Under the pieces are notes generated by a model that made no database searches, was not told the origin of the DNA, and saw nothing but the letters and a program-made list of their open reading frames with translations. 64,000 nt of DNA from Telmatospirillum siberiense (GTDB lineage Bacteria > Pseudomonadota > Alphaproteobacteria > Rhodospirillales > Magnetospirillaceae), in the NCBI RefSeq assembly GCF_002845745.1, contig NZ_PIUM01000004.1:1-64000 (forward strand). Reading direction: 5' to 3'. Of the stretch, positions 28,715-45,487 are shown piece by piece (within the stretch, counting starts at the first letter, position 1; every line of letters begins with the position of its first letter). The position numbers and the translations under genes were made by a program.

Positions 28715-30079
28715 TCACACCACCTGCCGGCCGCCCACCCAGACTTTCGCGATGTTGGCCTTCGACGCCGTATAGACGATCTTCTGGAGCAGATCCTCTC
28801 CCTGATCCAGGCCGTCCCACAGACGGATGGCGCCGGCTGGGGCTTCGGTGTCGATGGCCAGGGCGTCGAAGTGCTGGCCGGCGGTGAAGTTGCCGACGGG
28901 CAGGTCGAGGGCGATGCCGCCGCCGGTGGTGGCCAGATAGAAGGCGTCGCGGAAATCGATGCGCATCCCGTTTCGCCGGCCGCGCGTTCCGGCCGGCAGG
29001 TCGGGGTCGGTTCCGCTGTCGATCATGCGCGAGACCATCACCGCGCCCCGCATGGCCTCGAACAGCGAGGCGCCGGGGCCGCCCGAGATATCGGTGCCCA
29101 GGCCGACATGCAGGCCCTTTTCCAAGGCCGCCCGCAGGGGAAACACCGCGTCGGCGAAATAGGCGTTGGACAGTGGACAATGGGCGACGGCGGCGTGGCG
29201 GGCGCGGATGGTGTCCATGTCCGCCGCCGTCAGGAAGACGGAATGGGCGAGCACGCTGCGCCGTCCCAGAAGGCCGAAGCGGTCGAGGCTTTCGGTGTCG
29301 GTCACGCCATGCCGCGCCAGCACATGGGCGTGTTCCCAGTCGCTTTCGGAACAGTGGGTCTGCACATGCAGATCCGAACCATGGGCCAGGGATCCCAGGG
29401 CCGCCAGGGTTTCGTCGGTGCAGGCGGGGATGAAGCGCGGCGTGATCACCGGATGGACCAGGCGCTCGGCATTGTCCGGATGGGCACGGATATAGCCGAT
29501 CAGGTCCTCGGTGCCGCGCAGGGCGGCGTCCGGCGAGGCGTCGCGGTAGGTCTCGGGACAAAGGCCGGGATGATCCATCGCCACCTTGCCGATCAGGGCG
29601 CGCTGGCCGCGTTCGAGGCAGATGTCGGCCAGAAGGCGGCTGGCCGGTTGATGGATCGTCGCGTAATAGAGCGCCGTGGTGGTGCCGTTGGCCAACAGGT
29701 CCTCGACCAGCAGCCCGTAGCCGCGCCGGGCGAAGGCAAGATCGGCGTATCGGGATTCCAGCGGAAAGGTGTAGCGGGTGAGCCAGGTCTCCAGGGGCAC
29801 GTCCAGGGCCTGCCCCAGTTGCGGATATTGGGGGGCGTGCACATGCAGATCGATCATGCCGGGCAGCAGCAGGACGCCGGCGGGCAGGCGGTCGAGCCGG
29901 CCCGCCTCGTCGGCGGCCCGACGCCGCTCAAGATAGCCGTCGTCTTCGGGCCGGGTCAGCGCGGCGATCCGTCCGTCGGCGCCGATGCGGATCAAGGCGT
30001 CACGGAATTCCTCCACCCCGGTCCGTTCCGGCATGTGAAAGCCGGAGGCGAGAAGGGTTCTGTCCCGCAGGCCGCTCAT
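28715..30079 (-). CDS. guaD: Guanine deaminase
   Basis: A 454-residue amidohydrolase that hydrolyses guanine to xanthine and ammonia in the cytosol. Metal and substrate motifs are PGMIDLHVHAPQYPQ near residue 80, HVQTHCSESDWE, LAHSVFLTAADM, AHCPLSNAYF and GLGTDISGG. The PQYPQ segment after HVH is typical of guanine deaminase. ATG at 30079 overlaps the upstream gene's stop (ATGA), so translation is coupled. The longer upstream frame is a shadow of that gene. It is last in a minus-strand operon for purine-like compounds. Confidence 0.9.
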   Translation of the reverse strand: MSGLRDRTLLASGFHMPERTGVEEFRDALIRIGADGRIAALTRPEDDGYLERRRAADEAGRLDRLPAGVLLLPGMIDLHVHAPQYPQLGQALDVPLETWLTRYTFPLESRYADLAFARRGYGLLVEDLLANGTTTALYYATIHQPASRLLADICLERGQRALIGKVAMDHPGLCPETYRDASPDAALRGTEDLIGYIRAHPDNAERLVHPVITPRFIPACTDETLAALGSLAHGSDLHVQTHCSESDWEHAHVLARHGVTDTESLDRFGLLGRRSVLAHSVFLTAADMDTIRARHAAVAHCPLSNAYFADAVFPLRAALEKGLHVGLGTDISGGPGASLFEAMRGAVMVSRMIDSGTDPDLPAGTRGRRNGMRIDFRDAFYLATTGGGIALDLPVGNFTAGQHFDALAIDTEAPAGAIRLWDGLDQGEDLLQKIVYTASKANIAKVWVGGRQVV

Positions 30080-30933
30080 GCCGCTTGCAGGGTCGTGCCG
30101 TAGCGCAATCCCTTCTCCTTCAGCCAGCGGCGGTAGGTGGCCGAGGTGGCGTCGGCGCGGGCGGGCATTTCGGCGCGGGGTCCCAAGGGCAGCAGCAAGG
30201 GGCGCTGATTTTCCAGAATGATGCGGTCCTGCAGGAAAATAAGCTGCTGGAAATGGATGAGGTCGGCCAGCGGCGAGGCGTCGTCGATCAGGAACATCAC
30301 CGGATGGGCCCGGCAGCGGTCTTCTTCCAGCGGCTGGACGAACAGGCAGATGATATCCTGGCGGTCGGCGGCGTTGGGGCAGGTCTTGTAGAGGATGACC
30401 GCGAAGGGGTTGAGCACCCGGTAGACATAGTGGGTCATGATGCCGTCCTTGGCGGAAAGCGCCGCCTGCGGCTGGTAGAACCGGCAATCGGTCGCCCACA
30501 CCTCGTCGACGTCCCGGCGGATTTCCGCCGTGTAATGGTCCACCTCGGTATGGGGCTCGACGCCCAGGATGTTGGTATGCACGAAGGGAAAATGCGCCAG
30601 ATCGAGGAAGTTCTCGACGATGCGCGGACCCGACGACCTGACCGACACCGCGCCGCAGACGACGGAGCGGCGATCGGCCTCGAAGGCCTCGGGGATCGAC
30701 GACAGATCCGCCGCCGGGGTTCCCAGCGTCGTCCACAGATAGCCGTAACGCTCGCGGGTGGGAAGGGGGGCCGGGCGGCCTTCGGCGGTGACGGCGATGC
30801 GTCCCGCCTCATCGCGGGCGATCGTGAGATCGACGCCCAGCAGGCGATTGGGCATGGCGCCGGGGCCGATGTCCTGCAGGGCCTCGAGGCAATACCATTG
30901 GTCGAGGGCCGTCCTGTCCGCCGTTTCGCTCAT
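30076..30933 (-). CDS. Rieske-less oxygenase catalytic subunit (NdmC-like), copy 1
   Basis: A 285-residue relative of VanA-type Rieske oxygenase alpha subunits. The mononuclear-iron motif is complete: E107, D111, H114 and H119 in ENFLDLAHFPFVH fit (D/E)X3DX2HX4H, with a candidate third ligand D236 in LQDRIILENQ. The Rieske CXH...CXXH segment is absent: the sequence passes from GVDLTIARD (about 41) directly to ERYGYLWTTLG (about 61). This is the arrangement described for NdmC of caffeine-degrading Pseudomonas, whose Rieske cluster is supplied by another protein. It sits between two purine-type deaminases, supporting a purine substrate. Confidence 0.8.
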   Translation of the reverse strand: MSETADRTALDQWYCLEALQDIGPGAMPNRLLGVDLTIARDEAGRIAVTAEGRPAPLPTRERYGYLWTTLGTPAADLSSIPEAFEADRRSVVCGAVSVRSSGPRIVENFLDLAHFPFVHTNILGVEPHTEVDHYTAEIRRDVDEVWATDCRFYQPQAALSAKDGIMTHYVYRVLNPFAVILYKTCPNAADRQDIICLFVQPLEEDRCRAHPVMFLIDDASPLADLIHFQQLIFLQDRIILENQRPLLLPLGPRAEMPARADATSATYRRWLKEKGLRYGTTLQAA

Positions 30934-30952
30934 CGTTTGTCTCCGTCGCCGG

Positions 30953-32353
30953 TCATGGGGTGTAAAGCCGTTTCATCACCTTGCGGTGCGCCGCCAGGGC
31001 GCCGTCCAGGTCGAAGTCGCGGAAGGCGCCCCGGGCGATGATTTCGCGGCCGTTGATGAAGGAATAGTCGACCCGGAACGGTCCGCACATCACCAGCGCC
31101 GCCAGCGGATCGCGTTCGGTGCCGGACAGTCCCAGTTGGTTGAGCCGGACGGCGATGAAATCGGCGCTCATGCCCGGCGCCAGGGCGCCGATGTCGTCGC
31201 GGCCGAGCAGGCCGGCGCCGCCGCGCGTGGCCAGCCTCAGCGCCTCGCGGGCGGAAAGCGCGCTCGGCGTGCCGCCGAAGCCGCCGCGTCCGCCCGGCGC
31301 CTCGGACAGATAGCGCTGCGGCGCGACCCGCTGGAGCATCATGGCCTGCCTGGCCTCCATGAAGATGTTGGAGGTGTCGTTGGACGCCGAGCCGTCGACG
31401 CCGAGGCCGACCTTGACGCCGCCGTCCAGCATCTCGCGAACCTTGGCGATGCCCATGCCGCAGCGCATGTTGGCGGTCGGACAATGGGCGACGCCGGTGC
31501 CGGTTTCGGCGAAGCGGCGGATTTCGTCGCTGGACAGGAAGATCGCATGGGCGAACCAGACGTCGTCGCCCAGCCAGTCGACCGACTGGGCGAAATCGAC
31601 CGAGCGCATGCCGTAGATTTGTTGGCAGTAGGTTTCCTCGAACAGATCCTCGGCCAGATGGGAGTGCAGGGTGACGCCGGGATGCCGGCGGGCGAGGGCC
31701 GCCGCGTTCCGCATCAGCTCGGGCGTGACCGAGAACGGCGAGCAGGGGGCCAGCACGATGCGGCTCATCGCATGGCGCGAGGCGTCGTGATAGCGGCCGA
31801 TCAGCCGTTCGGCGTCGGCGAGGATGGCGTCTTCCGTCTCGACGCAGGCGTCCGGCGGCAGGCCGCCCTGGCTTTCGCCCCGCGACATGGCTCCACGGGC
31901 GGCGTGAAAGCGCAGGCCGATATCGCGGGCCGCCTCGATGGTGGCGTCCAAGGTGCAATTGTTGGGCAGGATGTAGAGGTGATCCGAACTGGTGGTGCAG
32001 CCCGAGGCGATCAGTTCGGCCATGGCGACGCGGGCCGAGACGCCGATGGCCTCGTCGTCCAGCGCCGACCAGATCGGATAGAGGGTTTTCAGCCAGACCA
32101 GCAGCTCCTCGTCCTGGACCATCACCCGGGTGAGGTTCTGATACATGTGGTGATGGGTGTTGATCAGCCCCGGCAATACCACATGGTCGGACAGATCGAG
32201 CACGCGGTCGGCCGCGCGGCCGGCCAGTTCGTCGGTGGTTCCCACCGCCTCGACGACATTGTCGCGGACGAGGATCGCCCCGTCGGCGATCTCGCGCCCC
32301 TCGTCGTCGAAGGTCGCCAGCCGGGCGATGTTCTTCACCAGCAGCGTCGGCAT
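30953..32353 (-). CDS. 8-oxoguanine deaminase-like amidohydrolase (TRZ/ATZ family)
   Basis: A 466-residue zinc/iron amidohydrolase. Motifs: PGLINTHHHMYQNLTRV at about residue 65 with YPIWSALDDEAI after it, LHSHLAEDLFEE, FAHAIFLSSDEI, AHCPTANMRCGMG and GLGVDGSASND. The THHHMYQNLTR block is typical of 8-oxoguanine deaminases and the AtzB-like branch. ATG at 32353 follows GGAGGGACTCCC. A 19-bp gap to the next gene suggests one transcript with the Rieske-less oxygenase and guanine deaminase. Hydroxypurine or aminopurine substrates are likely. Confidence 0.85.
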   Translation of the reverse strand: MPTLLVKNIARLATFDDEGREIADGAILVRDNVVEAVGTTDELAGRAADRVLDLSDHVVLPGLINTHHHMYQNLTRVMVQDEELLVWLKTLYPIWSALDDEAIGVSARVAMAELIASGCTTSSDHLYILPNNCTLDATIEAARDIGLRFHAARGAMSRGESQGGLPPDACVETEDAILADAERLIGRYHDASRHAMSRIVLAPCSPFSVTPELMRNAAALARRHPGVTLHSHLAEDLFEETYCQQIYGMRSVDFAQSVDWLGDDVWFAHAIFLSSDEIRRFAETGTGVAHCPTANMRCGMGIAKVREMLDGGVKVGLGVDGSASNDTSNIFMEARQAMMLQRVAPQRYLSEAPGGRGGFGGTPSALSAREALRLATRGGAGLLGRDDIGALAPGMSADFIAVRLNQLGLSGTERDPLAALVMCGPFRVDYSFINGREIIARGAFRDFDLDGALAAHRKVMKRLYTP

Positions 32354-32368
32354 GGGAGTCCCTCCAGT

Positions 32369-32592: not shown

Positions 32593-32622
32593 GGAGGTCG
32601 GCGCCACTGCACGTCCATCGGG

Positions 32623-33558
32623 TTAACGCACATCGCGGAAATAGGGCAGGCCGAGGGACGCCGGGGCGGCCATCAGCCGGCGCATCTTGTGCCAGGCCAG
32701 CACCGGCACGATGATCAGGGCGATGGTGCCGAGATAGGGCAGCATGGAAAGGATCGGCGCGGCGATCGGCCAGTTGCGGGCCTGTCCGACGAAACCCAGC
32801 GAGGTGATCAGGCCGAACAGCAAGGCCACCATGACGGCGTTCAGCGGGCGATAGCCGCCGAAGATGACCAGCGCCACGGCGATCCATCCGCGTCCGGCGA
32901 TGACGCCCTCGGACCAGGAGGGGACAAAGGCCAGCGTCAGATAGGCCCCGGCGCCGCTGGCCAGGGCCGAGCCGGCGGCCACATACCAGAAGCGGATCCG
33001 TTGCACCGGGATGCCGGCGGCGTCGGCGGCGGCGGGATCCTCGCCGACGGCCCGCAGATTGAGGCCGTGTCGGGTGCGGAACATCAGGTAATGCAGGGCG
33101 AGCGGCAGAATGATGTAGATCAGATAGATCAGCACGTTTTGCGAGAAGACGGCGGGGCCGATGACGGGGATCTTGCTCAAATAGGGCACGGCGACGGGGG
33201 CGAAGGTGGCCGGCGCCGGCATGCCGGAATAGGCCTTGCCGATGGTGGCCGACAGCCCGGTGCCCATCAGGGTCAGGGCCAGGCCGCACAAGACCTGGTT
33301 GGCCCGGATATAGACGGTGGCCACGGCGAAGATCATGCCGGCGAACAGGCCGACGCCCAGCGCCAGGGCGAAGCCCAGGGCCGGATTGGGGTGGGCCACG
33401 ACGGTGGCGATGGCGGTGATGGCGCCCAGCGACATCAGCCCCTCGACGCCGAGATTGACCACGCCGACCCGTTCGGCGAGCACCTCGCCCAGGGCGGCCA
33501 GGGCCAGCACGCCGCCGGCGAGCAGGGATGTTTGAAGAAGGCCGGTGATCAGATCCAT
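32623..33558 (-). CDS. Nucleoside/purine ABC transporter permease (NupQ/YufQ-like)
   Basis: A 311-residue inner-membrane permease of the branched-chain-type superfamily with about nine TM helices. The family features are GEVLAERVGVVNLGVEGLMSLGA near the N-terminus and GLNLRAVGEDPAAADAAGIPVQRIRF. It is the second, shorter permease of a BMP-type importer, 13 bp after the other permease gene. It imports nucleosides or nucleobases with the proteins at 33572-37388. Confidence 0.9.
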   Translation of the reverse strand: MDLITGLLQTSLLAGGVLALAALGEVLAERVGVVNLGVEGLMSLGAITAIATVVAHPNPALGFALALGVGLFAGMIFAVATVYIRANQVLCGLALTLMGTGLSATIGKAYSGMPAPATFAPVAVPYLSKIPVIGPAVFSQNVLIYLIYIILPLALHYLMFRTRHGLNLRAVGEDPAAADAAGIPVQRIRFWYVAAGSALASGAGAYLTLAFVPSWSEGVIAGRGWIAVALVIFGGYRPLNAVMVALLFGLITSLGFVGQARNWPIAAPILSMLPYLGTIALIIVPVLAWHKMRRLMAAPASLGLPYFRDVR

Positions 33559-33571
33559 GTGGGGACAATCC

Positions 33572-34624
33572 TCAAACGCTGGCCGTTTCGTTGCGGACGA
33601 AACGGTAATGGGAAAGCTCGTCGCCGATCGCCGTGAAGAACAGGATCAGTCCGGTGATGGCGAGAACGGTCGAGACGTTCAGGCCTTGCGTCTGCAAGAT
33701 GATGCCGGAATTGAGGATGATGCCCATCAGGGCGGCGCCGGCCAGAACGCCTAGCGCCGACCCCCGGGCCAGCACGGCGACCATGATGCCCAGATAGCCG
33801 AAGTTGTTGGAGATGCCGCCCTGCAGCCGGTGCACGGTGCCGACCACCTCGAACATGCCGGCGATGCCGGCGATGGCGCCCGAAAGCAGCATGACCAGGA
33901 TGAGATGGCGCCGGAAGGGCATGCCGGCATATCTGGCGGCCTGGGGATTGGACCCGCTGACGCGCACCTCGTAGCCCCAGCGGGTGAAGCTCAGGCCGGC
34001 CGCCACCAGGACCGTCAGCAGCACGGCCAGGGGGAAGCCCCAATGCACGGCGCCCCAGAATTCCGGCAGTTCGCAGGGCAGCCGCGCGGTGGTGGCCAGG
34101 GCATGTCCGTCGGGATCGAGCCAGGGACCGGTCGAGACGTAATAGACCAGCAGGACGGCTACGAAATTGAGCAGCAGGGTGGTGATCAGCTCGCTGACGT
34201 CGGCATAGGCCCGCGCCAGCGTCGGCACCAGGATCCAGGCCATTCCGCCCAGCCCGCCGGCGACGAAGGCGAGCGGCAGCAGGACGAAATCGGGGGCGGG
34301 AACGAACAGGGCGACGCCGGTGGCGGCGAAGGCGCCGGCATAGAATTGTCCCTCGGCGCCGATGTTCCAGGCGCCGATGCGCAAGCCCACGGCGACCGAC
34401 AGTCCGGTCAGGATCAGGGGGGTGACGAGAAGCCCGACATCCTCCAGTCCGAAGCGCGATCCGAAGGTCGATTTGACCACCTGGGCGACCAGCTTCAAAG
34501 GGTCGGCGCCATTGGCGGCGAGGATGACGCCGGCGGTCAGCAGCGCCAGCAGGATGGCCGCGGCGCGGGCGAGCAGGGCGACGGTGGGATGGGCCGACGG
34601 CAGGCGTTGGATGCGACCGCTCAC
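33572..34624 (-). CDS. Nucleoside/purine ABC transporter permease (NupP/YufP-like)
   Basis: A 350-residue inner-membrane permease with an N-terminal TM helix (LLARAAAILLALLTAGVILA). The family motif LRIGAWNIGAEGQFYAGAFAATG and the cytoplasmic coupling loop GYEVRVSGSNPQAARYAGMPFRRH identify it as the larger permease of the pair. It overlaps the ATPase gene by 4 bp, so the importer genes are translationally coupled. Confidence 0.92.
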   Translation of the reverse strand: MSGRIQRLPSAHPTVALLARAAAILLALLTAGVILAANGADPLKLVAQVVKSTFGSRFGLEDVGLLVTPLILTGLSVAVGLRIGAWNIGAEGQFYAGAFAATGVALFVPAPDFVLLPLAFVAGGLGGMAWILVPTLARAYADVSELITTLLLNFVAVLLVYYVSTGPWLDPDGHALATTARLPCELPEFWGAVHWGFPLAVLLTVLVAAGLSFTRWGYEVRVSGSNPQAARYAGMPFRRHLILVMLLSGAIAGIAGMFEVVGTVHRLQGGISNNFGYLGIMVAVLARGSALGVLAGAALMGIILNSGIILQTQGLNVSTVLAITGLILFFTAIGDELSHYRFVRNETASV

Positions 34625-36240
34625 GATGTGATCTCCCGGGATGTTTGGGCAAGGGCGCCGGCCGGCCGGCCCCCCATCATCAGGCCGATGTCCTCGATGG
34701 CGCTTTCGGCGGTGTCGAGCACACCCATGATCTCGCCGTGGAACATCACGGCGATGCGGTCCGAAAGATTGAGCAGCTCCTCCAGCTCCTCGGAAATCAG
34801 GATGACGCCGACGCCCTGGTCCCGAAGCTCGACGAAATAGCGCATCATGGTGTTGATCGCGCCGACGTCGAGACCCCGGCTCGGATAGGCGGCGATCAGC
34901 ACCTTCGTGGCGATGCGCATCTCGCGGCGCGCCACCAGCCGCTGCTGGTTGCCGCCCGACAGATTGCGCACCGGCATGGAAAAATCGGGAACCGTGACCG
35001 CCGCCGCCGCCGCGATGGACTGGGCCAGGGCGGTGGCCGCTCCGGGGCGGAACCAGCTTCCGATGGAGACCGGCGGCTTCTTATATTCGCGGATGACCGT
35101 GTTGTCGGTAATGCTCAAGGCCGGCGCCAGACCGCTTTTCAGACGATCCTCGGGAATGTGGCCGATGCCGGAGCGGGCGATCTCGGCGCCGCCGGCGGCG
35201 GAAAAATCCCGGCCGTCGACGAGGATTTTTCCCGACAGCGGCTTCTTCATGCCAGTCAGCACCTCGCTCAATTCCTTCTGGCCGTTGCCGGCCACGCCGG
35301 CGATACCCAGGATCTCTCCGGCGTGGATATCGAGGGACACCTTGTTGAGCGCGACATTGCCGAAATCGTCGCGGACGGTAACCTCGCGCAGGCTGAGCAC
35401 CGGTTCGGCCGAGATGGGGGCCGCCTCCGCCTTCCGCGCGCGCAGATCGCTGAGCACGATCTCATGTCCGACCATCAGATTGGCCAGCATCGCCTGGTTG
35501 CAGTCGGCGGTGGCTTCCGTGGTCACCCGCCGCCCGCCCCTGAGGACGGTGATGCGGTCCGAGATCTCCAGGACCTCGTCCAGCTTGTGGCTGATGAAGA
35601 TCACCGCGTTGCCGCGCGAGACGAACTCCCTCAACGCCCTGAACAACTCGCGCGCCTCGGCCGGGGTGAGGACCGCCGTCGGTTCGTCGAGGATGAGCAC
35701 GCGGGCGTTGCGGGCCAGCACGCGCAATATTTCCACCCGCTGCTGCTCGCCGGTGGACAGATCGCCGACGCGGGCTTCGGGGCGCACCGCCAGATTGAGC
35801 GCGGCGGCCAGTTCGGCCGTCCGCGCCTCCAGCGCCTGGGCGCTGATCCGCTTCGGCGTCTCCGCCCAGCCGAGATGGATGTTCTCGGCGACGCTGAAGG
35901 CTTTGACCAGCTTGAAATGCTGATGGACCATGCCGATGCCGGCGGCGATGGCGTCGACCGGAGAGGCGAAGATCTTCGCATAGCCGTCGATGATGATCTC
36001 ACCGGCATCCGGCTGGTAGATGCCGGTGAGAATGTTCATCAAGGTGGATTTTCCGGCCCCGTTCTCGCCAAGAAGCGCATGGATCTCCCCCGGCATCACC
36101 TCGATATCGACGTCCTGATTGGCGATGACGCCGGGGAAATATTTGGCGATCCCCTTGAGATAGACGATAGGCGGGGTGCCGGGCGCGACCTTGGCGCGCC
36201 CGGTTTCGAAAGATCGTCCGGTTTCGGAAAATCCATGCAT
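34621..36240 (-). CDS. ABC transporter ATP-binding protein, double NBD (nucleoside/purine importer)
   Basis: A 539-residue ATPase with two fused nucleotide-binding domains. NBD1 has Walker A GENGAGKST, signature LSTGEQQR and Walker B LILDEPTAVLTP. NBD2 has a degenerate Walker A (GVAGNGQKEL), signature LSGGNQQR and AAYPSRGLDVGA in place of the usual D-E-P Walker B. This asymmetry is normal for the sugar/nucleoside family. ATG at 36240 begins the conserved protein; upstream frame shadows the 3' part of the binding-protein gene. It energises the two permeases downstream. Confidence 0.93.
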   Translation of the reverse strand: MHGFSETGRSFETGRAKVAPGTPPIVYLKGIAKYFPGVIANQDVDIEVMPGEIHALLGENGAGKSTLMNILTGIYQPDAGEIIIDGYAKIFASPVDAIAAGIGMVHQHFKLVKAFSVAENIHLGWAETPKRISAQALEARTAELAAALNLAVRPEARVGDLSTGEQQRVEILRVLARNARVLILDEPTAVLTPAEARELFRALREFVSRGNAVIFISHKLDEVLEISDRITVLRGGRRVTTEATADCNQAMLANLMVGHEIVLSDLRARKAEAAPISAEPVLSLREVTVRDDFGNVALNKVSLDIHAGEILGIAGVAGNGQKELSEVLTGMKKPLSGKILVDGRDFSAAGGAEIARSGIGHIPEDRLKSGLAPALSITDNTVIREYKKPPVSIGSWFRPGAATALAQSIAAAAAVTVPDFSMPVRNLSGGNQQRLVARREMRIATKVLIAAYPSRGLDVGAINTMMRYFVELRDQGVGVILISEELEELLNLSDRIAVMFHGEIMGVLDTAESAIEDIGLMMGGRPAGALAQTSREITS

Positions 36241-37388: not shown

Positions 37389-37690
37389 TGATATCCCCTC
37401 TGACTGTTGACGTTGGCGGTGACCGGTTTTGACCTCGCGTTCGACTCCGCCCCTATTCTGGAATGGTTCTAGCAAAAGCCGCGCCACACGGAGGAGCGGT
37501 GCGGGGAGGCGGCGATGGACCGGACCTCCCTCCGGCGGTTCAAAGCGGGTGTCCCGAACATCCGGGCTCCGGTCGACGTTATCGCCCGGCATGCGGTGCC
37601 GCCGCGATGGGCGTGAAGCCTCAGTTTGTTCCTCGGCAACGAACTGTTCCAGAGATGCGATGTCCCGAATAGGGCAAAATATATGACGAT
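37389..37690. other. Intergenic region between divergent operons
   Basis: This is the left part of the 442-bp divergent control region between the importer operon and the Rieske operon. It should hold the minus-strand promoter. I see no riboswitch-like structure. The recognisable operator-like sites lie to its right, at 37691-37783. Confidence 0.35.
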
Positions 37691-37710
37691 GTTGTTGCGT
37701 CTTGTGCAAC
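37691..37710 (+). promoter_or_regulatory. LysR-type box (GTTGTTGC-N7-GCAAC)
   Basis: An interrupted palindrome TTGC-N7-GCAA (37695-37709) fits the T-N11-A rule for LysR operators. The same GTTGTTGC-N7-GCA pattern recurs at 40441-40458, before the ThDP-enzyme operon. The likely binder is the LysR protein encoded at 39206-40126; that is inferred from position. Confidence 0.5.
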
Positions 37711-37764
37711 GCTTGACGCCCCCGGTGCCGTGGGCTAAGAAGCTTATATGCACAAAAAGAGTGC

Positions 37765-37783
37765 ATGCTTAAATTTTAAGCAT
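37765..37783 (+). promoter_or_regulatory. 19-bp perfect palindrome before the Rieske gene
   Basis: ATGCTTAAATTTTAAGCAT is a perfect palindrome around one central base, about 47 bp upstream of the ATG at 37831. The size and AT-rich centre suit a dimeric repressor or activator. It is distinct from the LysR box at 37691. Confidence 0.45.
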
Positions 37784-37830
37784 TTGCCTTGTTGGGCGGC
37801 AGGAGAGTTCGGCTCGAACGGGAGTTACCG

Positions 37831-38559
37831 ATGGATATGCAAGGTCACTGGTATCCGGTCTCATTGGCTCATTCGGTCGAGCCGGGAAGCGCCGCGGGCG
37901 TCCGTCTGGATGGGCGGGAATTGGTGGTCTGGCGCGACGGGGAGGGGGGCGCCCATGTCTGGGAGGATCGCTGTCCGCATCGCGGCATGCGCCTCAGCCT
38001 GGGGTTCGTCCGCGAGGGCCGGCTGGGGTGTCTCTATCACGGTTGGGAGTTCGGCGCGGATGGGCAGTGCTCCCACATTCCGGCCCACCCCGACAGCCAG
38101 GTGCCGAAGGCGATCCGGACCCGGCCCTATCCGAAGGAGGTGCGTTTCGGCATGATCTGGACGGCACTGTCCGCCGAGCCTCCGCCGCCGCTGCCGGAGG
38201 ACGCCGCCGAGATCACCCCGGTGGCGAGCCTTTATCTCGATTGCGCCGCCGCCGCCGCGCTGTCGGCTTTGCGGGCGAGCCGCCTTCCGCCGTTCCGGGC
38301 GGGGGATCATGACGCCGGGACCGTTTTCGAAACCGTGGCCCCCACCTTGTTCCGTCTGTCCGCCGGGAGCGAGAGCATTCTCGTCGGCCTGCAGGCCGTC
38401 GCCGCCGAACGGACGGCCCTGCATATCGTTATCGAGGGGCCCGGCGTCGTCTATGCGGGGCAGGGACAGTCCCATTTCCTGCGCTGGGCGCAGGAGTTGC
38501 GCCATCGCATCGAAACACCGTCCTTGAATTCCGCCAACCGCCCCGGGGAGGCGCCGTGA
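37831..38559 (+). CDS. Stand-alone Rieske [2Fe-2S] protein (oxygenase electron-transfer component)
   Basis: A 242-residue protein whose first 115 residues are a complete Rieske domain: C48 and H50 in CPHRG and C67 and H70 in CLYHGW ligate the cluster, with FGMIWTAL after it. The remaining 125 residues lack the (D/E)X3DX2HX4H iron site of oxygenase catalytic domains, so it cannot be a complete oxygenase. ATG at 37831 follows GGGAGTTACC. It overlaps the GST-like gene by 4 bp. I infer that it passes electrons to the Rieske-less proteins at 30076 and 44621, as the extra Rieske domain of NdmD does for NdmC. Confidence 0.85.
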   Translation: MDMQGHWYPVSLAHSVEPGSAAGVRLDGRELVVWRDGEGGAHVWEDRCPHRGMRLSLGFVREGRLGCLYHGWEFGADGQCSHIPAHPDSQVPKAIRTRPYPKEVRFGMIWTALSAEPPPPLPEDAAEITPVASLYLDCAAAAALSALRASRLPPFRAGDHDAGTVFETVAPTLFRLSAGSESILVGLQAVAAERTALHIVIEGPGVVYAGQGQSHFLRWAQELRHRIETPSLNSANRPGEAP

Positions 38560-39191
38560 TGCCCGATCTCACCCTCTACAACTACGATCTCGACGAAAGC
38601 TGTTACAAGGCCCGCCTGCTTCTGTCCTTCCTGGGGCTCGACTGCAAGATCGTCGCCGTCGATGTCTTTCCCGGCCGGGAGCAGACGACGCCGCCCTTCC
38701 TGGCGCTCAATCCCCTGGGGCGCCTCCCCATCCTGACGGACGGCGATTTCGTCCTGACCGGGACCGAGGCCATCCTCGCGCATCTGGCGCGCGCCCATGA
38801 TCCGTCGGAGCGGTGGCTGCCGATGGAGGGCGAGGCTTTCGCCCGGGTGATGTCCTGGCTCACATTCTCGGCCCGCGATCTCGACGTGACCATCACCGCC
38901 CGGCAACGCTCCCTGTTCGGCCCGCCGGGCGATGAAACATCCCTGGTCGCGGCCTCGCGCCGGCTGTTGCGGATCATGGACGAGCATCTGCTGGCCCGTG
39001 GGTACACGGGTGAGGAGTGGTTCGCCGCGCCGCATCCCACCATTGCCGATATCGCCCTGTTCCCGGCTTTCGCCCTGAGCCGGGACGTCGGCATCGACCA
39101 CGACGAATATCCGGCATTGCGCCGGTGGAGCCGCCGTTTCCGGGGGCTTTCCGGTTTTCGCGTCATGCCGGGCATTCCCGAATATTTCTGA
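38556..39191 (+). CDS. Glutathione S-transferase-like protein (NdmE-like context)
   Basis: A 211-residue protein with an N-terminal thioredoxin-like GST domain (LTLYNYDLDESCYKARLLLSFLGL, then NPLGRLPILTDGDFVLTGTEAILAHLA) and a C-terminal helical domain (HPTIADIALFPAFAL). It may be enzymatic or purely structural. In the NdmCDE N-demethylase a GST-like protein, NdmE, is needed to assemble the complex. The adjacent Rieske gene and two NdmC-like proteins make a similar role plausible here. Start is ATG 38556 or 38559. Confidence 0.88.
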   Translation: MMPDLTLYNYDLDESCYKARLLLSFLGLDCKIVAVDVFPGREQTTPPFLALNPLGRLPILTDGDFVLTGTEAILAHLARAHDPSERWLPMEGEAFARVMSWLTFSARDLDVTITARQRSLFGPPGDETSLVAASRRLLRIMDEHLLARGYTGEEWFAAPHPTIADIALFPAFALSRDVGIDHDEYPALRRWSRRFRGLSGFRVMPGIPEYF

Positions 39192-39205
39192 AGGAAGGCC
39201 CCGCC

Positions 39206-40126
39206 ATGGATCCTTACCGACTGGGACTGGTTTCGCCCCGCATCCATTATTTCCAGCTCGTCGCGCGGCTGGGCTCCATCCGGCAGGTGGCGCAGATGCT
39301 GAACGTCGCGCCGTCGTCGATCAGCCGGGTCATCAAGAGCCTGGAGGAGGAACTCGGCACCCGTCTGTTCGAACGGGTCCGCCAGCGGCTGAAACTGACC
39401 AGCGCCGGCGAGTTGCTGCTCTATCATGCGCGGGCCAGCAGCGCCGAGTTGAACCGCGCCTGGTCCGAGATCAACGAACTGCACGGGCTGCATCGCGGCA
39501 CCGTGTCGGTCGCCGTCATCGAGAGCGTGGCGCGGGGACTGATCCCGGCCGTCTTGCAGGAATTCTGGGCCCGCCATCCGCATATCACGGTCGACGTCAA
39601 GGTCGCCGGGTCGCAGCAGGTCTGCGATCTGGTGACGGCGGGCGATTGCGATCTGGCGGTGGCCTTCGACGTCCGCGTGCCGCGCAATGTGCGCAAGGCG
39701 GCCACCGCGCAATTGCCGTTGGGCGTGCTCGCCCGTCCCGACAGCCGTTTCGCCGGCAAGAAGGAATTGAAACTGTTCGATCTGTCGGGTGAGCGGGTCA
39801 TCGTTTCGGACAGCAGTCTGACGCTGGGGATTTCCGTCGAGGATGCCTTCAGCCGCTCGCTGATCGATCTGGCCCGGCGCTCCAGGACCAATTCCATCGG
39901 CCTGATGGTCGACATGGCCAAGATGAACCTGGGCACCGTCCTGCAAACCCGAGTGGGGATCGAAAACGAGATCGCCGAGGGGTCGCTCACCTTCATTCCC
40001 CTGCGCGATCCGAAGATCAGTCCCCGGCGATTGATGCTGCTGGCCCGGTCGGAAAAGGAAATGTCCGACGCCGCCTCGGCCTTCGCCGCCCTGCTGGCCC
40101 AGGCGATCGAGAGGCTGAAGCGTTAG
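39206..40126 (+). CDS. LysR-family transcriptional regulator
   Basis: A 306-residue LysR regulator with HTH at about residues 10-68 (PRIHYFQLVARLGSIRQVAQMLNVAPSSISRVIKSLEEELG, then RLFERVRQRLKLTSAGE) and an effector domain behind it. AAGGAAGG precedes ATG 39206. It is cotranscribed with the Rieske and GST-like genes and lies among three catabolic units that share LysR-box-like sites, so it is the best candidate for the local regulator. Confidence 0.92.
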   Translation: MDPYRLGLVSPRIHYFQLVARLGSIRQVAQMLNVAPSSISRVIKSLEEELGTRLFERVRQRLKLTSAGELLLYHARASSAELNRAWSEINELHGLHRGTVSVAVIESVARGLIPAVLQEFWARHPHITVDVKVAGSQQVCDLVTAGDCDLAVAFDVRVPRNVRKAATAQLPLGVLARPDSRFAGKKELKLFDLSGERVIVSDSSLTLGISVEDAFSRSLIDLARRSRTNSIGLMVDMAKMNLGTVLQTRVGIENEIAEGSLTFIPLRDPKISPRRLMLLARSEKEMSDAASAFAALLAQAIERLKR

Positions 40127-40380: not shown

Positions 40381-40440
40381 CAAAAGTCCGGATGGTTCCC
40401 CGCCACTCATCCGGGGTGACGACATCGCATGCGCAACCAG

Positions 40441-40459: not shown

Positions 40460-40533
40460 CAAGTTCATCGGAAATAAGCGTCTATGCAGAACATCTGCAC
40501 TTTGGGAACCTGTTCCTGCAACGGAGGACCCGG

Positions 40534-41034
40534 ATGAAGCAAAGCGCAGTGGACGCCGTGATTCGCGGCTTGAAGAGGGCTGGGGTGAGCCTGGTGTGTT
40601 ATCTGCCAGATTCGCTGTTCAAGGAGCTGTATCCGGCGCTGGACGCCGATCCGGACATCCGGACCGTCCGCGTCACCAACGAAGGGGAGGGGGCGGCCAT
40701 TTGCGGCGGCGTCTTCCTGTCGGGCAAGCGTGCCGCGCTGGTCATGGAGAATTCCGGTTTGCGGGCGTCGGTCGAACCGCTGGCCCGCATGGGGCTGGGG
40801 GCCGGCATCCCGGTGGTCATGCTGATGAGCTATCGCGGCGAGACGGGGGAAAACAACTGGTGGGCCATTCCCCACGGCATCACCATGGAGCCGGTTCTCG
40901 ACGCCCTGCGCATTCCCTATCAGGTGGTGCGGGACGAGGAAAAGATCGAGCGGGCGATCGTCGATGCCTATAGCTGGTCCTACGCGGCCTATTACCATTC
41001 GGCGGTGGCCCTGGGCGGCGAGGTGGTGCGATGA
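40534..41034 (+). CDS. ThDP-dependent decarboxylase alpha subunit (pyrimidine-binding half)
   Basis: A 166-residue half-enzyme corresponding to the PYR domain of thiamine-diphosphate decarboxylases. The activating glutamate is in RVTNEGEGAAICGG, followed by GLRASVEPLARMGLGAGIPVVMLMSYRGE. The split of PYR and PP domains into two short proteins matches sulfopyruvate decarboxylase (ComD/ComE) and related enzymes. ACGGAGGACCC precedes ATG 40534. It overlaps the beta-subunit gene by 4 bp. The substrate, probably a 2-oxo acid, is unknown. Confidence 0.85.
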   Translation: MKQSAVDAVIRGLKRAGVSLVCYLPDSLFKELYPALDADPDIRTVRVTNEGEGAAICGGVFLSGKRAALVMENSGLRASVEPLARMGLGAGIPVVMLMSYRGETGENNWWAIPHGITMEPVLDALRIPYQVVRDEEKIERAIVDAYSWSYAAYYHSAVALGGEVVR

Positions 41035-41639
41035 AGCGGTTCGACTGCATGAAGGCCCTGGCCGGCCGTCTCAAGGACGAACTGGTCATCCTGTCCCTGG
41101 GCGGCAGCGTCGACGAATGGTACAACGCGGCGCCCCACATGCGCGAAGCCAGCCTGTTCCAGCAGCAACTGGGCTGCGTGACGGCGCAGGCCTTCGGACT
41201 GTCCATGGGCTTGCCGCATCGCCGCGTCGTCTCGCTCGATACCGACGGCGGCATGCTGTTCAACCTCGGCATCCTGGCCACGCTGGGCAACGAACAGCCG
41301 AAAAATCTGTTCGTCGTCGTCTGGGACAACGAATGCTATCAGTCGATCGGCGGGCCGCCGACCCACACCGCCTTCGGCCGGGTCGATCTGGCGGCCATCG
41401 CCCGCGGCGCCGGCATCGAACAGGCCTACACCGTCCGCGATCTCGACGATTTCGACGCCCATTGCGCCAGGGGGCTGGCCGCCGCCGCCCCTTATGTGAT
41501 CGTCGCCAAGGTCTCGGGTACCGTGCAGCCGGGCATCCGGCGCAAGCACAGCGACGGGCGCGAGGATAAATACATCTTCGTCCGTCATGTCGAAGCTTCG
41601 GAAGGGATCGTCATCATGGGCCCCAGCGAGCACAATTGA
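41031..41639 (+). CDS. ThDP-dependent decarboxylase beta subunit (pyrophosphate-binding half)
   Basis: A 202-residue PP domain. The ThDP/Mg motif is DTDGGMLFNLGILATLGN...N (a GDG-N variant) with VVVWDNECYQSIGG after it. Together with the alpha subunit at 40534 it would form the active site at their interface. It resembles the ComE type. It is followed 2 bp later by a GMC oxidoreductase, which could act on an aldehyde or alcohol linked to the decarboxylase product. Confidence 0.85.
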   Translation: MKRFDCMKALAGRLKDELVILSLGGSVDEWYNAAPHMREASLFQQQLGCVTAQAFGLSMGLPHRRVVSLDTDGGMLFNLGILATLGNEQPKNLFVVVWDNECYQSIGGPPTHTAFGRVDLAAIARGAGIEQAYTVRDLDDFDAHCARGLAAAAPYVIVAKVSGTVQPGIRRKHSDGREDKYIFVRHVEASEGIVIMGPSEHN

Positions 41640-41641
41640 TC

Positions 41642-43201
41642 ATGACCGCGCCGACCGTTCCCCTACGCCCGCTGCGGCCCTCCTACGACCATATCGTCGT
41701 CGGCGCGGGCTCCGGCGGCGCGGCGGTGACCCGCCGCCTGGTCGATGCCGGGGCCGACGTCCTGCTGATCGAAGCCGGTCCGTCGGGCATCGGCGTCGCC
41801 GATATCGAGGAGCCGGCGCGCTGGGTCGCGCTTCCGCGCGGGCCCTACGACTGGGGATATGATTACGCGCCGGGTCCGCAGATCGACGGCCGCGTCATCG
41901 GCATTCCGCGCGGACGGGTGCTCGGCGGATCGTCGGCCATCAACGCGCTGATGTGGTATCGCGGCCATCCCCTCGATTACGATGCCTGGGAGGCGGACGG
42001 GGCGGAAGGATGGGCCTTCCGCGACGTTTTGCCCTATTTCAAGCGCTGCGAGGATTGGGAAGGGGGCGAGACGGCCTATCGCGGGGCCGGCGGTCCCTTG
42101 CGGATCGAGCGCAGTCACGATCCCCATCCCCTGGCCGACGCCCTGATCGCCGGGGCCGGCGCGCTGGGCGTGCCGATCATCGAGGATCCCAACGGCCGGG
42201 ACAATGAGGGGGCCGCCTACGCCAATCTGAACATGTCGGGAGGGCGGCGCTGGTGTTCGGCGCGCGGCTATCTCTGGCCGGTTCTCGATCGGCTCAACCT
42301 GACCGTCCTGACCGATTGCCAGGCCCTCGATCTGGGATTCGAAGGCTCGCGCTGCGTCTCGGTGCGCCACGTCCGCAACGGGACGACGGCGGAGACGCGG
42401 GCGAGCGGCGGGATCGTCCTGGCCCTGGGCGCCATCGACACGCCCCGTCTTCTCATGATGTCGGGGATCGGCGATCCCGGAGAACTGAAGCGTCTGGGGC
42501 TGCCCGTCCGCCTGGGCTTGCCGGGCGTCGGGCAAAATCTTCAGGATCATCCGCTGATTCGCGCCGTCAATTTCCGCTCGAAGCGTCCCTTGGGGCCGGT
42601 GCGCGACAACGGCGGCGGCTCCATGGTCAACTGGAAGACCGACGCCGGCTTGCCCCAGGCCAATGTTCACGCCTTTCCCATTCAGGGCCTGAGCGCCGAG
42701 GATGCCCTGGCCGATCGCTACGATCTGTCGGGCGACGTCTTCGCCGTCGGCACCGGGCTGATGCGCTCGCGCAGCCGCGGCTATCTGCGGCTGCTGAGCG
42801 GCAAACCCGGCGGGGCGGTGGAAATCCAGCCCAATTTCCTGGCCGAGCAGGGTGACATGGACGATCTGGTCGCGGCGGTCGATTTCGTCATGGAGATGGC
42901 CGGCACCAGGGCCTACGCCGATTGGTTCGAAGGCTTTGCCGCCCCCGACCGCCGGCTCGGGCGGAGCGAAGCCGGAACCTTCATCCGCCGGGGCTGTTCG
43001 ACTTTCTTCCACAGCTGCGGCACCTGCAAGATGGGGAAGGATCCCCTGGCGGTGGTCGATGCCCGTCTGCGCGTTCTGGGTATCGAAGGGCTGCGTATCG
43101 CCGATGCCTCGGTCATCCCCGTCATTCCAAGCTGCAATACCCATGCGCCCGTGACCATGATCGGCGAACGCGCCGCCGATTTCATCCTGGAGTCCCGATG
43201 A
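41642..43201 (+). CDS. GMC-family FAD oxidoreductase (choline dehydrogenase-like)
   Basis: A 519-residue flavoenzyme. The FAD-binding fold is YDHIVVGAGSGGAAVTRRL with LLIEAG; GMC signature 1 is GRVLGGSSAINALMWYRG, and the C-terminal catalytic region is FFHSCGTCKMG with NTHAPVTMIGERAAD. Members oxidise primary alcohols to aldehydes. ATG at 41642 is chosen; a TTG at 41636 overlaps the upstream stop. With the aldehyde dehydrogenase at 49142 it could oxidise a side-chain alcohol to an acid; this pathway link is inferred. Confidence 0.9.
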   Translation: MTAPTVPLRPLRPSYDHIVVGAGSGGAAVTRRLVDAGADVLLIEAGPSGIGVADIEEPARWVALPRGPYDWGYDYAPGPQIDGRVIGIPRGRVLGGSSAINALMWYRGHPLDYDAWEADGAEGWAFRDVLPYFKRCEDWEGGETAYRGAGGPLRIERSHDPHPLADALIAGAGALGVPIIEDPNGRDNEGAAYANLNMSGGRRWCSARGYLWPVLDRLNLTVLTDCQALDLGFEGSRCVSVRHVRNGTTAETRASGGIVLALGAIDTPRLLMMSGIGDPGELKRLGLPVRLGLPGVGQNLQDHPLIRAVNFRSKRPLGPVRDNGGGSMVNWKTDAGLPQANVHAFPIQGLSAEDALADRYDLSGDVFAVGTGLMRSRSRGYLRLLSGKPGGAVEIQPNFLAEQGDMDDLVAAVDFVMEMAGTRAYADWFEGFAAPDRRLGRSEAGTFIRRGCSTFFHSCGTCKMGKDPLAVVDARLRVLGIEGLRIADASVIPVIPSCNTHAPVTMIGERAADFILESR

Positions 43202-44574
43202 TGACGCAACGACTGATTCTGGCGGGCGATTTTCTGCTGACCATGGATCCGGCCAACCGGACCATTTCCAAAGGCGCCCTGTTGATCGAGGACGGGCGGA
43301 TCGCCGCCGTCGAACGGCTGGACGCGCTGGCGGCGTCCTATCCCGAGGTTCCCGTCAAGACGGTGGGCAACGCCATTCTGATGCCGGGCCTGATCAATAC
43401 GCACGCCCATTCCGGCCTGTTGCGCGGCACGGCCGAACATCTGCCGGTGTGGGACTGGCTGACGCTGCACATCAATCCCATGCACCGCGTCCTCGAACCC
43501 GGCGAGGCCGAGGTTGCTTCGCGGCTGTGTTATGCGGAAAGCCTGCTGGGCGGAACCACCACCGTCGTCGATATGTGGCGTTTCATGGAGGGCAGCGCGC
43601 GGGCGGCCTCGACGATCGGCAACCGGCTGGTCGCCGTGCCTTACGTCGGGGCGCATCCGGATTACGACTATTTCGACAGTCTCGACATGAACGAGGCGCT
43701 GATCGAGAGCTGGCACCGCAAGGCCGGGGGCCGCATCAATGTCTGGGTCGGGCTGGAACATTTGTTCTACGCCGACGAGGCGGGCCAGCGGCGTGCCGTC
43801 GACATGGCGAAAAAGCACCATACCGGCTTTCACACCCATTGTAGCGAGGCCCGGATCGAGCGCGAGGAGTTCGCCAGCCGCTACGGCAAGGCGCCGATGT
43901 TCGTCCTCGACGATCTGGGATTTTTCGAGACGCCCCTTGCCATGATCGCCCATGCCGTCTGGCTCGATGCCTCGGAGATCGATCTGATCGCCCGGCGCCG
44001 GGTCTCGGTCGCCCACAATCCGGTCAGCAACATGAAGCTGGCCAGCGGCATGGCCCCCATCGCCGCCATGCTGGCCGCCGGGGTGCCGGTCGGCATCGGC
44101 ACCGATGGGGAAAAGGAAAACAACAACTTCGACATGTTCGAGGAAATGAAGGTCGCCTCGCTTCTCGGCAAGCTGAAGGATCTGGACGCCGCCGCCATGG
44201 ACAGCTGGCAGGTGCTGCGCATGGCGACGATCCTGGGGGCCAGGGCCATCGGGCTCGATGATGAGATCGGCTCCCTGGAGGTGGGCAAGCGCGCCGACGT
44301 CATCGCCGTGCGGACCGACACGCCGCGCATGGCGCCGCTGTTCGGCGAGGGCCCCCATTTCAACCTGCATCACAACCTCGTCCATGCCGTGCGGGGCGGC
44401 GATGTCGCGCTCACCATGGTGGACGGCGATATCGTCGTCGAGGATGGCCGGTTGAAGACCGCCGAGGTGACGGATCTGGTCGCCGAGGTTCAGCGATCGG
44501 CGCCGGGGCTTTTCGCCCGCCGCGCGGCATTTCTCGCCGCCAACGGCAGCGGCGTTCAATGGACGAAGGGGTGA
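43198..44574 (+). CDS. TRZ/ATZ-family amidohydrolase (MTA/SAH or purine deaminase-like)
   Basis: A 458-residue metal-dependent deaminase. Motifs: PGLINTHAHSGLLRG near residue 65, FHTHCSEARIE, AHAVWLDASEIDLIARRRVSVAHNPVSNMKLASG and GIGTDGEKENNN. This pattern is closest to 5-methylthioadenosine/S-adenosylhomocysteine deaminases and other heterocycle deaminases. It is the third deaminase-like enzyme in the locus. Two start codons, 43198 and 43201, are equally placed, and the gene overlaps the GMC gene. Confidence 0.85.
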   Translation: MMTQRLILAGDFLLTMDPANRTISKGALLIEDGRIAAVERLDALAASYPEVPVKTVGNAILMPGLINTHAHSGLLRGTAEHLPVWDWLTLHINPMHRVLEPGEAEVASRLCYAESLLGGTTTVVDMWRFMEGSARAASTIGNRLVAVPYVGAHPDYDYFDSLDMNEALIESWHRKAGGRINVWVGLEHLFYADEAGQRRAVDMAKKHHTGFHTHCSEARIEREEFASRYGKAPMFVLDDLGFFETPLAMIAHAVWLDASEIDLIARRRVSVAHNPVSNMKLASGMAPIAAMLAAGVPVGIGTDGEKENNNFDMFEEMKVASLLGKLKDLDAAAMDSWQVLRMATILGARAIGLDDEIGSLEVGKRADVIAVRTDTPRMAPLFGEGPHFNLHHNLVHAVRGGDVALTMVDGDIVVEDGRLKTAEVTDLVAEVQRSAPGLFARRAAFLAANGSGVQWTKG

Positions 44575-44620
44575 TACCAAGCGGCGTTTGCAGCTTGGGT
44601 TCGAAGCGGGGAGCGCGACG

Positions 44621-45487
44621 GTGAAAACGACGGACAAAGTGGCGCTTGATCAATGGTATGCGGTGGAAACAGCCGCGGACCTCGGTTCGCGGGCGATTGT
44701 CACCCGCCTTCTCGGCCAGGACATCGAACTCGGCCGCGATGGCGCCGGCCGGCCGACGGTCCGGGAAATCCGGGATGACGGAAAGCCGGGGACGCCGCTG
44801 CCGGTCCGCGAGCGTTACGGCTGCCTGTGGACGACCCTGGGGCGCCCGGTCGGCGACATCTTCGACATCGCGGAAGCCGGGGAGGCCGACCGCCGCTTCG
44901 TTCCCTGCGGCTGGGTGAGCATGCGGGCCTCGGGCCTGCGCGTGGTCGAGAATTTTCTCGACATGGCGCATTTCCCCTTCGTTCACACCAACATCCTGGG
45001 ATCCGAGCCGCGTACCGAGGTTCCGGCTTACGCCAGCGAGATCCGCCGGGATGTGGACGAGGTCTGGGCGACCAACTGCACCTTTTTCCAGTCGCGCATC
45101 GCCGCGACCGAAAGCGCCGGCGATTTCGTCCATCTGACCTATCGCGTCCCCAATCCCTTCACCGTGATGCTCTACCGGATCTGTCCGACGGCGCCGGAAC
45201 GGCTGGACGCCATCGCGCTGTTCATCCATCCCCTGGAGGAGGATCTCTGCCGGGCGCAGCCGGTGATGTATCTGGTCGACGCCCACTCGACCGACACGGC
45301 GCTGCTCAATTTCGAGCAGGTGATCTTCCTGCAGGACCGGATCATCGTCGAAAACCAGCGTCCGCTTCGTCTGCCGTTGGAGCCGCGAAAGGAAATTCCC
45401 ACCTGGGCCGATTCCTCTTCGCTCACCTACCGGCGCTGGCTGAAGGAAAAGGGCCTGCGCTTCGGCACCACCCTGGGGGCCGCCTGA
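44621..45487 (+). CDS. Rieske-less oxygenase catalytic subunit (NdmC-like), copy 2
   Basis: A 288-residue paralogue of the protein at 30076, sharing ALDQWY, ERYGCLWTTLG, VHTNILGSEP, LPLEPRKEIP and TYRRWLKEKGLRFGTTLGAA. The iron-site motif is complete (E110, D114, H117, H122 in ENFLDMAHFPFVH), while the Rieske segment between GRDGAG (about 43) and ERYG (about 64) is missing. GTG at 44621 is preceded by GGGGAG; an upstream TTG has no support. It is cotranscribed with a deaminase before it and a molybdenum hydroxylase after it (2 bp gap), consistent with stepwise degradation of a purine-like ring. Confidence 0.8.
   Translation: MKTTDKVALDQWYAVETAADLGSRAIVTRLLGQDIELGRDGAGRPTVREIRDDGKPGTPLPVRERYGCLWTTLGRPVGDIFDIAEAGEADRRFVPCGWVSMRASGLRVVENFLDMAHFPFVHTNILGSEPRTEVPAYASEIRRDVDEVWATNCTFFQSRIAATESAGDFVHLTYRVPNPFTVMLYRICPTAPERLDAIALFIHPLEEDLCRAQPVMYLVDAHSTDTALLNFEQVIFLQDRIIVENQRPLRLPLEPRKEIPTWADSSSLTYRRWLKEKGLRFGTTLGAA

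Follow-up and report, generated by a model that had tools for sequence, protein, structure and literature searches.

A probable split Rieske oxygenase with a separate Rieske protein, encoded in a purine-catabolism gene cluster of Telmatospirillum siberiense

Rieske oxygenases of known structure transfer electrons between subunits: in the ordinary enzymes, the iron is reduced by a cluster that belongs to the adjacent subunit and lies about 12 angstroms away across the interface (PMC12445004). The cluster and iron halves can therefore occupy different chains. Such a division is found in NdmCDE of Pseudomonas putida CBB5, in which the catalytic subunit NdmC lacks a Rieske cluster, NdmD supplies the cluster from a Rieske part fused to a reductase, and NdmE is a third subunit resembling glutathione S-transferase (GST). 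A 2023 review describes NdmCDE as a 3:3:3 complex of 360 kDa and reports that NdmC expressed alone forms inclusion bodies (PMC10380055). Here we describe a gene cluster at approximately 28.7–50.7 kb of a 64,000-nucleotide stretch of DNA (the window; positions 1 to 64,000 of contig NZ_PIUM01000004.1) from the 6.2 Mb genome of Telmatospirillum siberiense, which probably encodes a Rieske oxygenase that acts on modified purines and is divided among several proteins. Its components are two catalytic subunits (A1 and A2), a Rieske protein (R), and a GST-like protein (E). The system appears to work like NdmCDE and belongs to a known kind of split enzyme, of which it represents a variant form with a separate Rieske protein.

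A1 (30076..30933, minus strand) and A2 (44621..45487, plus strand, read from a GTG start within the open reading frame 44588-45487) are 62% identical and carry the motifs ENFLDLAHFPFVH and ENFLDMAHFPFVH, respectively, both of the form (D/E)X3DX2HX4H, while neither contains CXH...CXXH. Their only Pfam match, with E-values of up to 0.001 considered, is to VanA_C (PF19112; 3e-19 and 5e-14). Residues E107, D111, H114, H119, and D236 (A1 numbering) are invariant across 43 A sequences; from known Rieske oxygenases, we take D111 to be the bridging aspartate and H114, H119, and D236 to be the iron ligands, roles that agree with an alignment to SxtT. The bridging aspartate and 2-His-1-carboxylate site of a canonical catalytic chain are present in A, but the cluster and iron site that canonical alpha subunits hold on the same chain are here found on different chains. 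The AlphaFold model of A1 (pLDDT 90.1) was aligned by Foldseek to whole alpha subunits, with TMq values up to 0.86 and SxtT/GxtA as the top matches, and A1 is thus predicted to share the alpha-subunit fold of the full-length oxygenases SxtT/GxtA and NdmA/NdmB. Unlike A, these enzymes and HpxD bear cluster and iron on a single chain; we know of no GST-like subunit in any of them. When A is aligned with full-length oxygenases, its cluster segment is seen to be missing; a stretch of A (residues 11-50) shows homology to residues 5-45 of R (hhalign probability 93), which suggests that A retains the framing strands of the Rieske domain. A1 and A2 are accordingly described as alpha subunits without the cluster-binding part of that domain. 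This pattern was followed in 80 loci, the best 80 of at least 558 relatives in a scan of genome contigs and a sample that leans to close relatives (bit-score cuts: A >150, R >100, E >150), where the iron motif is present in 82 of 82 A proteins and the Rieske motif in none; a sequencing error masking the Rieske motif is ruled out by its absence from all 82.

R (37831..38559, plus strand) presents the complementary set of cofactor sites. This 242-aa protein has no reductase domain and contains the motif C-P-H-X16-C-L-Y-H without an iron motif, and PF00355 (Rieske; 8.5e-23) is its only Pfam match at the same threshold. The start at 37831 is backed by a GGGAG-like ribosome site and by an alignment of 44 R proteins, in which the cluster ligands C48, H50, C67, and H70 are invariant, and the cluster motif without the iron motif recurs in all 78 R proteins of the 80 loci, so that chance can be excluded as the source of the division. 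The stop codon of R overlaps the start of E (GTGATG at 38556-38561), so that E spans 38559..39191 on the plus strand, with an alternative GTG start at 38556; it matches only GST_N/GST_C families (PF02798, PF13410) and has a second, weaker homologue elsewhere in the genome (319 vs. 177 bits). Motifs and family matches thereby bear out an earlier note on this DNA, made from the sequence letters and open reading frames, which had described the proteins at 30076 and 44621 as having an iron motif without a Rieske segment, and the protein at 37831 as having a cluster without an iron site and being followed by a GST-like gene.

The same note regarded R as a separate Rieske domain, of which the separateness stands, but R is not just a Rieske domain. 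Its AlphaFold model (pLDDT 93.6) contains a second, iron-free domain at residues 128-228, composed of one strand, one helix, four strands, and a long helix. Foldseek aligned R to whole alpha subunits with TMq values of 0.66-0.77 for SxtT/GxtA, a score that approximately 115 of 242 residues alone could not reach, and more than the Rieske part must therefore have been matched. The presence of the second domain and the match to whole alpha subunits rule out a bare Rieske ferredoxin. Judged from the model, R is probably an alpha subunit whose catalytic domain has shrunk and no longer holds iron, the homology of its second domain to the catalytic domain of A being drawn from the fold match (one method, as is also the case for the tree described below).

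Kinship with NdmCDE, the lead given by the earlier note, holds by sequence and was measured through counterparts in Paraburkholderia caffeinilytica in place of the CBB5 proteins themselves. The NdmC-, NdmD-, and NdmE-like names of the P. caffeinilytica proteins are assigned here from gene order and homology; the record annotates them as a ring-hydroxylating dioxygenase, a PDR/VanB oxidoreductase, and a GST. The NdmC-like protein is 45% identical to A1 and 41% to A2, the NdmE-like protein is 43% identical to E, and the NdmD-like protein is, from its N-terminal start, 35% identical to R over 162 residues. In each of two NdmD-like proteins, an R profile gives a single hit, which spans residues 5-243 in one (2e-45) and 7-241 in the other (6e-45), so that all of R, beyond its Rieske part, corresponds to the N-terminal region of NdmD. 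The locus thus has the Rieske-less catalytic subunit and the GST-like subunit of NdmCDE, with the cluster supplied by another chain, but the Rieske-reductase fusion that defines NdmCDE was looked for and is absent, and for this reason the system is not classed as NdmCDE itself. R is a separate protein here and no reductase is encoded with it; there are two catalytic subunits in place of one, and the genomic context is guanine/8-oxoguanine catabolism in place of caffeine degradation.

Related gene clusters combine the same pieces in different ways. The pSymA cluster of S. meliloti likewise encodes two Rieske-less catalytic subunits, one Rieske partner, and one GST-like protein, but its Rieske part is fused to a PDR reductase. 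Paracoccus alcaliphilus shares a stand-alone R with A and E in one run, together with a BMP importer and an 8-oxoguanine deaminase, and differs in that a single catalytic subunit is in view and that E is followed by an unfused PDR/VanB reductase gene. In Variovorax paradoxus (L017:10001-11815), a PDR reductase is instead fused to a Rieske-less catalytic subunit, an arrangement that mirrors NdmD; the fusion gene is preceded by a stand-alone R and followed by a GST-like gene. The fusions in S. meliloti and Variovorax, along with the unfused reductase beside R, A, and E in Paracoccus, indicate that the pieces belong to one enzyme. Rhizobium johnstonii, Shinella, and Qingshengfaniella have R-A-E with an amidohydrolase and a BMP importer, and no PDR reductase is annotated in the stretches of these loci that were shown.

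The split-oxygenase variant is common in the sample examined. R is present in 78 of the 80 loci and E in 76, with the E proteins of two further loci (L089 and L095) scoring 88 and 101 bits, below the strict cut. A less biased test was made with A and R profiles in 149 genomes of one order, where A matches were obtained in 25 and R matches in 26. Two genomes were set aside on open-frame length and match position as encoding full-length oxygenases: G140, in which both matches fall in one 371-aa frame, and G105, in which a match to the Rieske part only lies in a 338-aa frame. A and R then occur in the same 24 genomes, with at least one A on the contig of R (in G157, a second A is on another contig). 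The co-occurrence that had been put forward as a check is thereby observed for A and R across genomes, and for E with them in 76 of 80 contig loci. Taken as open-frame length, R is stand-alone-sized (≤314 aa) in 14 of the 24 genomes and of NdmD size or more (≥573 aa) in 10. The family is found on plasmids (e.g., pRL10) and chromosomes (e.g., L052 and L079) of many alphaproteobacteria, the plasmid searches having found 296 and 308 records, with 19 regions examined. Among T. siberiense and 60 relatives, including four of the same genus, A was found at an E-value of 1e-20 only in T. siberiense itself, which suggests acquisition of the system or patchy loss in its relatives.

These counts bear on the proposal that the cluster encodes an ordinary caffeine-type NdmCDE acting on 7-methylxanthine, whose reductase has been lost or misplaced. 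Although A, R, and E are all homologous to NdmC-, N-terminal NdmD-, and NdmE-like proteins of a caffeine degrader, the cluster holds guanine-related genes in place of an NdmA/NdmB-like gene, the latter being absent because R is the sole PF00355 match in the window, and a stand-alone-sized R in 14 of 24 genomes indicates an established form as opposed to a local loss. We consider this proposal quite unlikely.

A tree of 105 catalytic regions has one branch (100/100) that separates every one of the 96 Rieske-less rows from nine full-length oxygenases; the 23 rows of A2-type proteins group as a single clade (100/100). The tree was built from the catalytic region only, contains several long branches, and is midpoint-rooted; with the root among the full-length oxygenases, it would fit a single origin of the split. 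HpxDE, a full-length oxygenase with a PDR reductase partner, is a different arrangement from the one found here and stands apart in the tree. The nearest full-length relative is, with weak support (89/49), encoded by a Leptolyngbya boryana plasmid (L117), and may resemble the ancestor of the split form. This gene and a full-length Rieske oxygenase gene of Acinetobacter (L119) both adjoin BMP-type importers.

T. siberiense encodes two A proteins but only one protein that matches the full-length R profile (282 bits); the next-best match (82 bits) covers profile positions 4-118, the Rieske part, only. One R-E pair lies between A1 and A2 by coordinates on six other contigs, the R. tumorigenes cluster (L010) and locus L060 likewise have one R and two A, and two A proteins with one R are found in 7 of the 24 genomes of the 149-genome set. 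Sharing of R by A1 and A2 is the simplest reading of this arrangement, on which it is based, and the layout suggests interchangeable catalytic subunits. It could instead be supposed that R serves one catalytic subunit, probably A1, and that A2 uses another cluster protein or a full-length oxygenase. A2 does reside in a module of its own approximately 5 kb from E, neither R nor E lies within 10 kb of the catalytic gene at two A2-type loci (L077 and L082), and the genome contains eight PF00355 matches in total. Conversely, R and E are in view at 19 of the 21 A2-type loci and the genomes of the other two have R elsewhere, a single protein of T. siberiense matches R over its full length, and S. 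meliloti has two catalytic subunits beside a single NdmD-like protein, which together render an exclusive use of R by one subunit very unlikely.

No reductase is encoded at the locus, as the earlier note had stated, and a PDR-reductase query found no match elsewhere in the T. siberiense genome at an E-value of 1e-5. The same query was matched in 16 of 16 other genomes or records, in some of them weakly (3e-8 in G063 and G065), so that several genomes bearing the trio of A, R, and E also appear to be without a close PDR reductase. Within the DNA examined, a PDR reductase lies near only 1 of the 80 loci (L060, 264 bits). A hidden reductase gene near the trio was also considered and rejected, since that query was positive in this one locus and none was recognised among the neighbour families listed (families present in at least eight loci, from a crude single-linkage clustering). 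Because a dedicated reductase was not found, the donor is proposed to be a general ferredoxin with a ferredoxin reductase. The genome encodes a ferredoxin-NADP-reductase-like protein (L104) and an ISC-type-like ferredoxin (L107), both below NCBI cut-offs, and we infer that proteins of these types could act as electron donors.

A stand-alone R could also be a general Rieske ferredoxin for other oxygenases, with A fed directly by a soluble ferredoxin. The genome does encode at least two proteins of 445-450 aa with both Rieske and iron motifs (L003 and L005), which would require donors; PF00848 has no match in the genome and hence none in these two proteins. The best fold matches of R are nevertheless whole alpha subunits, full-length R matches coincide with A among the 149 genomes, and relatives have R fused to a reductase beside NdmC-like proteins. 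A general role for R is, on this evidence, extremely improbable.

In the mechanism that we favour for the split oxygenase, three A, three R, and three E subunits would form a C3 assembly by analogy with the 3:3:3 NdmCDE complex described in the review cited above (PMC10380055). The general ferredoxin and ferredoxin reductase would pass electrons to R, and the reduced cluster of R would transfer them, in A1 by way of the bridging D111, to the iron that H114, H119, and D236 coordinate. An imported purine would then be hydroxylated by activated O2 at an N-alkyl substituent, most likely a methyl group, and the resulting carbinolamine would break down into an aldehyde and the bare purine. Two enzymes encoded in the cluster, guanine deaminase and the xanthine-dehydrogenase-like enzyme, could take this purine further towards urate. 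Both A1 and A2 would be served by the same R and E.

A further proposal, on which we are evenly divided, is that A and R both descend from full-length purine-type oxygenases and are alpha subunits disabled in opposite halves, that R and E form a shared hub for differing catalytic subunits, and that a housekeeping ferredoxin is the donor. A would then have lost the cluster segment, and R would have lost the iron site, its catalytic domain having shrunk to a scaffold. If this were true, NdmD would represent this hub joined to a reductase, and what is called its "extra Rieske domain" would be the remnant of a complete alpha subunit. The placement of the metal sites on different chains makes inter-subunit electron transfer addressable site by site, with no mixed or mutated subunits, and a stand-alone R, unlike NdmD, uncouples the Rieske step from the reductase.

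A purine substrate is suggested by the genes surrounding the oxygenase, which encode an importer, guanine and 8-oxoguanine deaminases, and a xanthine-dehydrogenase-like enzyme. The family is often found within purine clusters and may reveal bacterial use of modified purines, such as methylated guanine. N-demethylation of methylated guanine or xanthine fits the kinship of A with NdmC, and 7-methylguanine or 7-methylxanthine can be named as the A1 substrate only tentatively; in the open-licence literature of PubMed Central, nothing was found on 7-methylguanine demethylation by Rieske enzymes. The 80 loci comprise 60 of the A1 type and 21 of the A2 type, with L060 in both groups. The A2 module (40534-50656) is largely kept as a block in the 21 A2-type loci, where both thiamine diphosphate (ThDP) decarboxylase-like subunits and the third amidohydrolase are present in 21, the GMC oxidoreductase in 20, and the molybdopterin part of the dehydrogenase in 16. 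This suggests a purine with an oxidisable side chain, and A1 and A2 probably act on different substrates.

The main rival to N-demethylation is ring C-hydroxylation by the same split enzyme, for example of guanine to 8-oxoguanine with subsequent deamination towards urate, as in HpxD. HpxD is a full-length Rieske enzyme annotated as a molybdenum cofactor-independent xanthine hydroxylase; it resembles the proposed enzyme in being a purine enzyme by annotation, and A1 is 30% identical to it. The 8-oxoguanine deaminase gene lies directly upstream of A1 here, and the same order was seen in 16 of 59 A1-type loci counted, nine without and seven with guanine deaminase downstream. Against ring hydroxylation, A groups with the P. 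caffeinilytica NdmC-like protein and HpxD lies across the 100/100 branch, and guanine deaminase is commoner beside A1 (32/60) than 8-oxoguanine deaminase (18/60). We regard it as rather unlikely, and N-demethylation remains the preferred chemistry.

Several observations weigh against a split purine oxygenase as set out above. The guanine link is not universal, given that guanine deaminase is present in 32 and 8-oxoguanine deaminase in 18 of the 60 A1-type loci within the DNA examined. No similarity of the second domain of R to the catalytic domain of A was found by hhalign. No formaldehyde-detoxifying gene was noticed among the window open reading frames that were read, although no search was aimed at one; the P. 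caffeinilytica cluster contains two such genes, and linked ones are described for the CBB5 cluster (PMC4408171). A search of open-licence papers in PubMed Central found no description or biochemistry of the stand-alone form. Some A genes stand without partners nearby: L077 and L082, both A2-type, have neither R nor E within 10 kb of A, and the A gene on a Roseicitreum antarcticum plasmid (L012, 11989-12855) has neither within 12 kb, nor any R on its plasmid, to which that search was confined. The genomes of L077 and L082 do encode a stand-alone-sized R on another contig (283 and 263 bits), and R of L013, a locus on a circular plasmid, is encoded on that plasmid beyond the point where the record begins; the L012 protein is either an orphan or has its R elsewhere in the genome. 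Eight of the 80 loci span <20.5 kb, and absences in these are weaker.

On the minus strand, outward from R, the cluster encodes the BMP-type ABC importer, 8-oxoguanine deaminase, A1, and guanine deaminase. The importer consists of a BMP/PnrA-like substrate-binding protein (36273..37388; PF02608, 4.9e-37), an ATPase (34621..36240), and two permeases (33572..34624 and 32623..33558), the latter of which has a homologue adjoining A in relatives and annotated as a permease in the R. tumorigenes cluster. 8-Oxoguanine deaminase (30953..32353; NF006055, 610.7 bits, cut-off 532) and guanine deaminase (28715..30079; TIGR02967, 405.6 bits, cut-off 375.4) pass curated NCBI cut-offs, and the start of the guanine deaminase gene shares four bases with the stop of A1. 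Between the divergent BMP and R genes lies a 17-bp palindrome, TGCTTAAATTTTAAGCA (37766..37782), which is the single match in the window, compared with none in 100 shuffles, and is a possible operator.

The plus strand continues from R and E with a LysR-type regulator (39206..40126) and two small ThDP-decarboxylase-like subunits, alpha-like (40534..41034; TIGR03845, 104 bits, cut-off 148) and beta-like (41031..41639; TIGR03846, 94 bits, cut-off 221.5). These are followed by a GMC-family oxidoreductase (41642..43201; PF00732, PF05199) and a third amidohydrolase (43201..44574; PF01979), whose nearest NCBIfam model is 5'-deoxyadenosine deaminase (PRK07228, 319.5 bits, cut-off 522). After A2 come a xanthine-dehydrogenase-like enzyme with fused FAD and molybdopterin parts (45490..48645; PF00941, PF02738, PF20256; pucD, 692 bits, cut-off 784), its [2Fe-2S] subunit (48642..49145; PF00111 at 48675-48836, 2e-5), and an aldehyde dehydrogenase (49142..50656), all on the plus strand. 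The ThDP, GMC, third amidohydrolase, and xanthine dehydrogenase names are class-level only, being below cut-off, and those of the LysR regulator, ATPase, second permease (33572..34624), and aldehyde dehydrogenase were given by position relative to the annotated R. tumorigenes cluster, whose layout matches that of the window save for the 8-oxoguanine deaminase.

A degenerate acylphosphatase-like protein of approximately 80-90 aa is encoded directly 5' of R in 41 of 78 R loci, for example at L009:10928-11194, where it scores just below the PF00708 threshold (20.7 vs. 22.5 bits). It presumably lacks the classical acylphosphatase signature, and might serve the split oxygenase as an additional accessory protein. 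In T. siberiense, the corresponding gap (37389-37830) contains no recognisable open reading frame for such a protein and gave no phmmer match, although the same search also failed to detect a protein of R. tumorigenes (L010:13264-13503) that resembles it by eye.

Other features were recognised by eye at the edges of the cluster. Two small gene pairs resembling toxin-antitoxin modules are located at 22664-23432 and 28044-28642, the second of which adjoins the guanine deaminase end, and G+C content falls to 0.53 at 24-28 kb. Past the opposite edge, translations resemble a TauD-like dioxygenase (50662-51573) and a sulfonate-type ABC substrate-binding protein (51724-52683).

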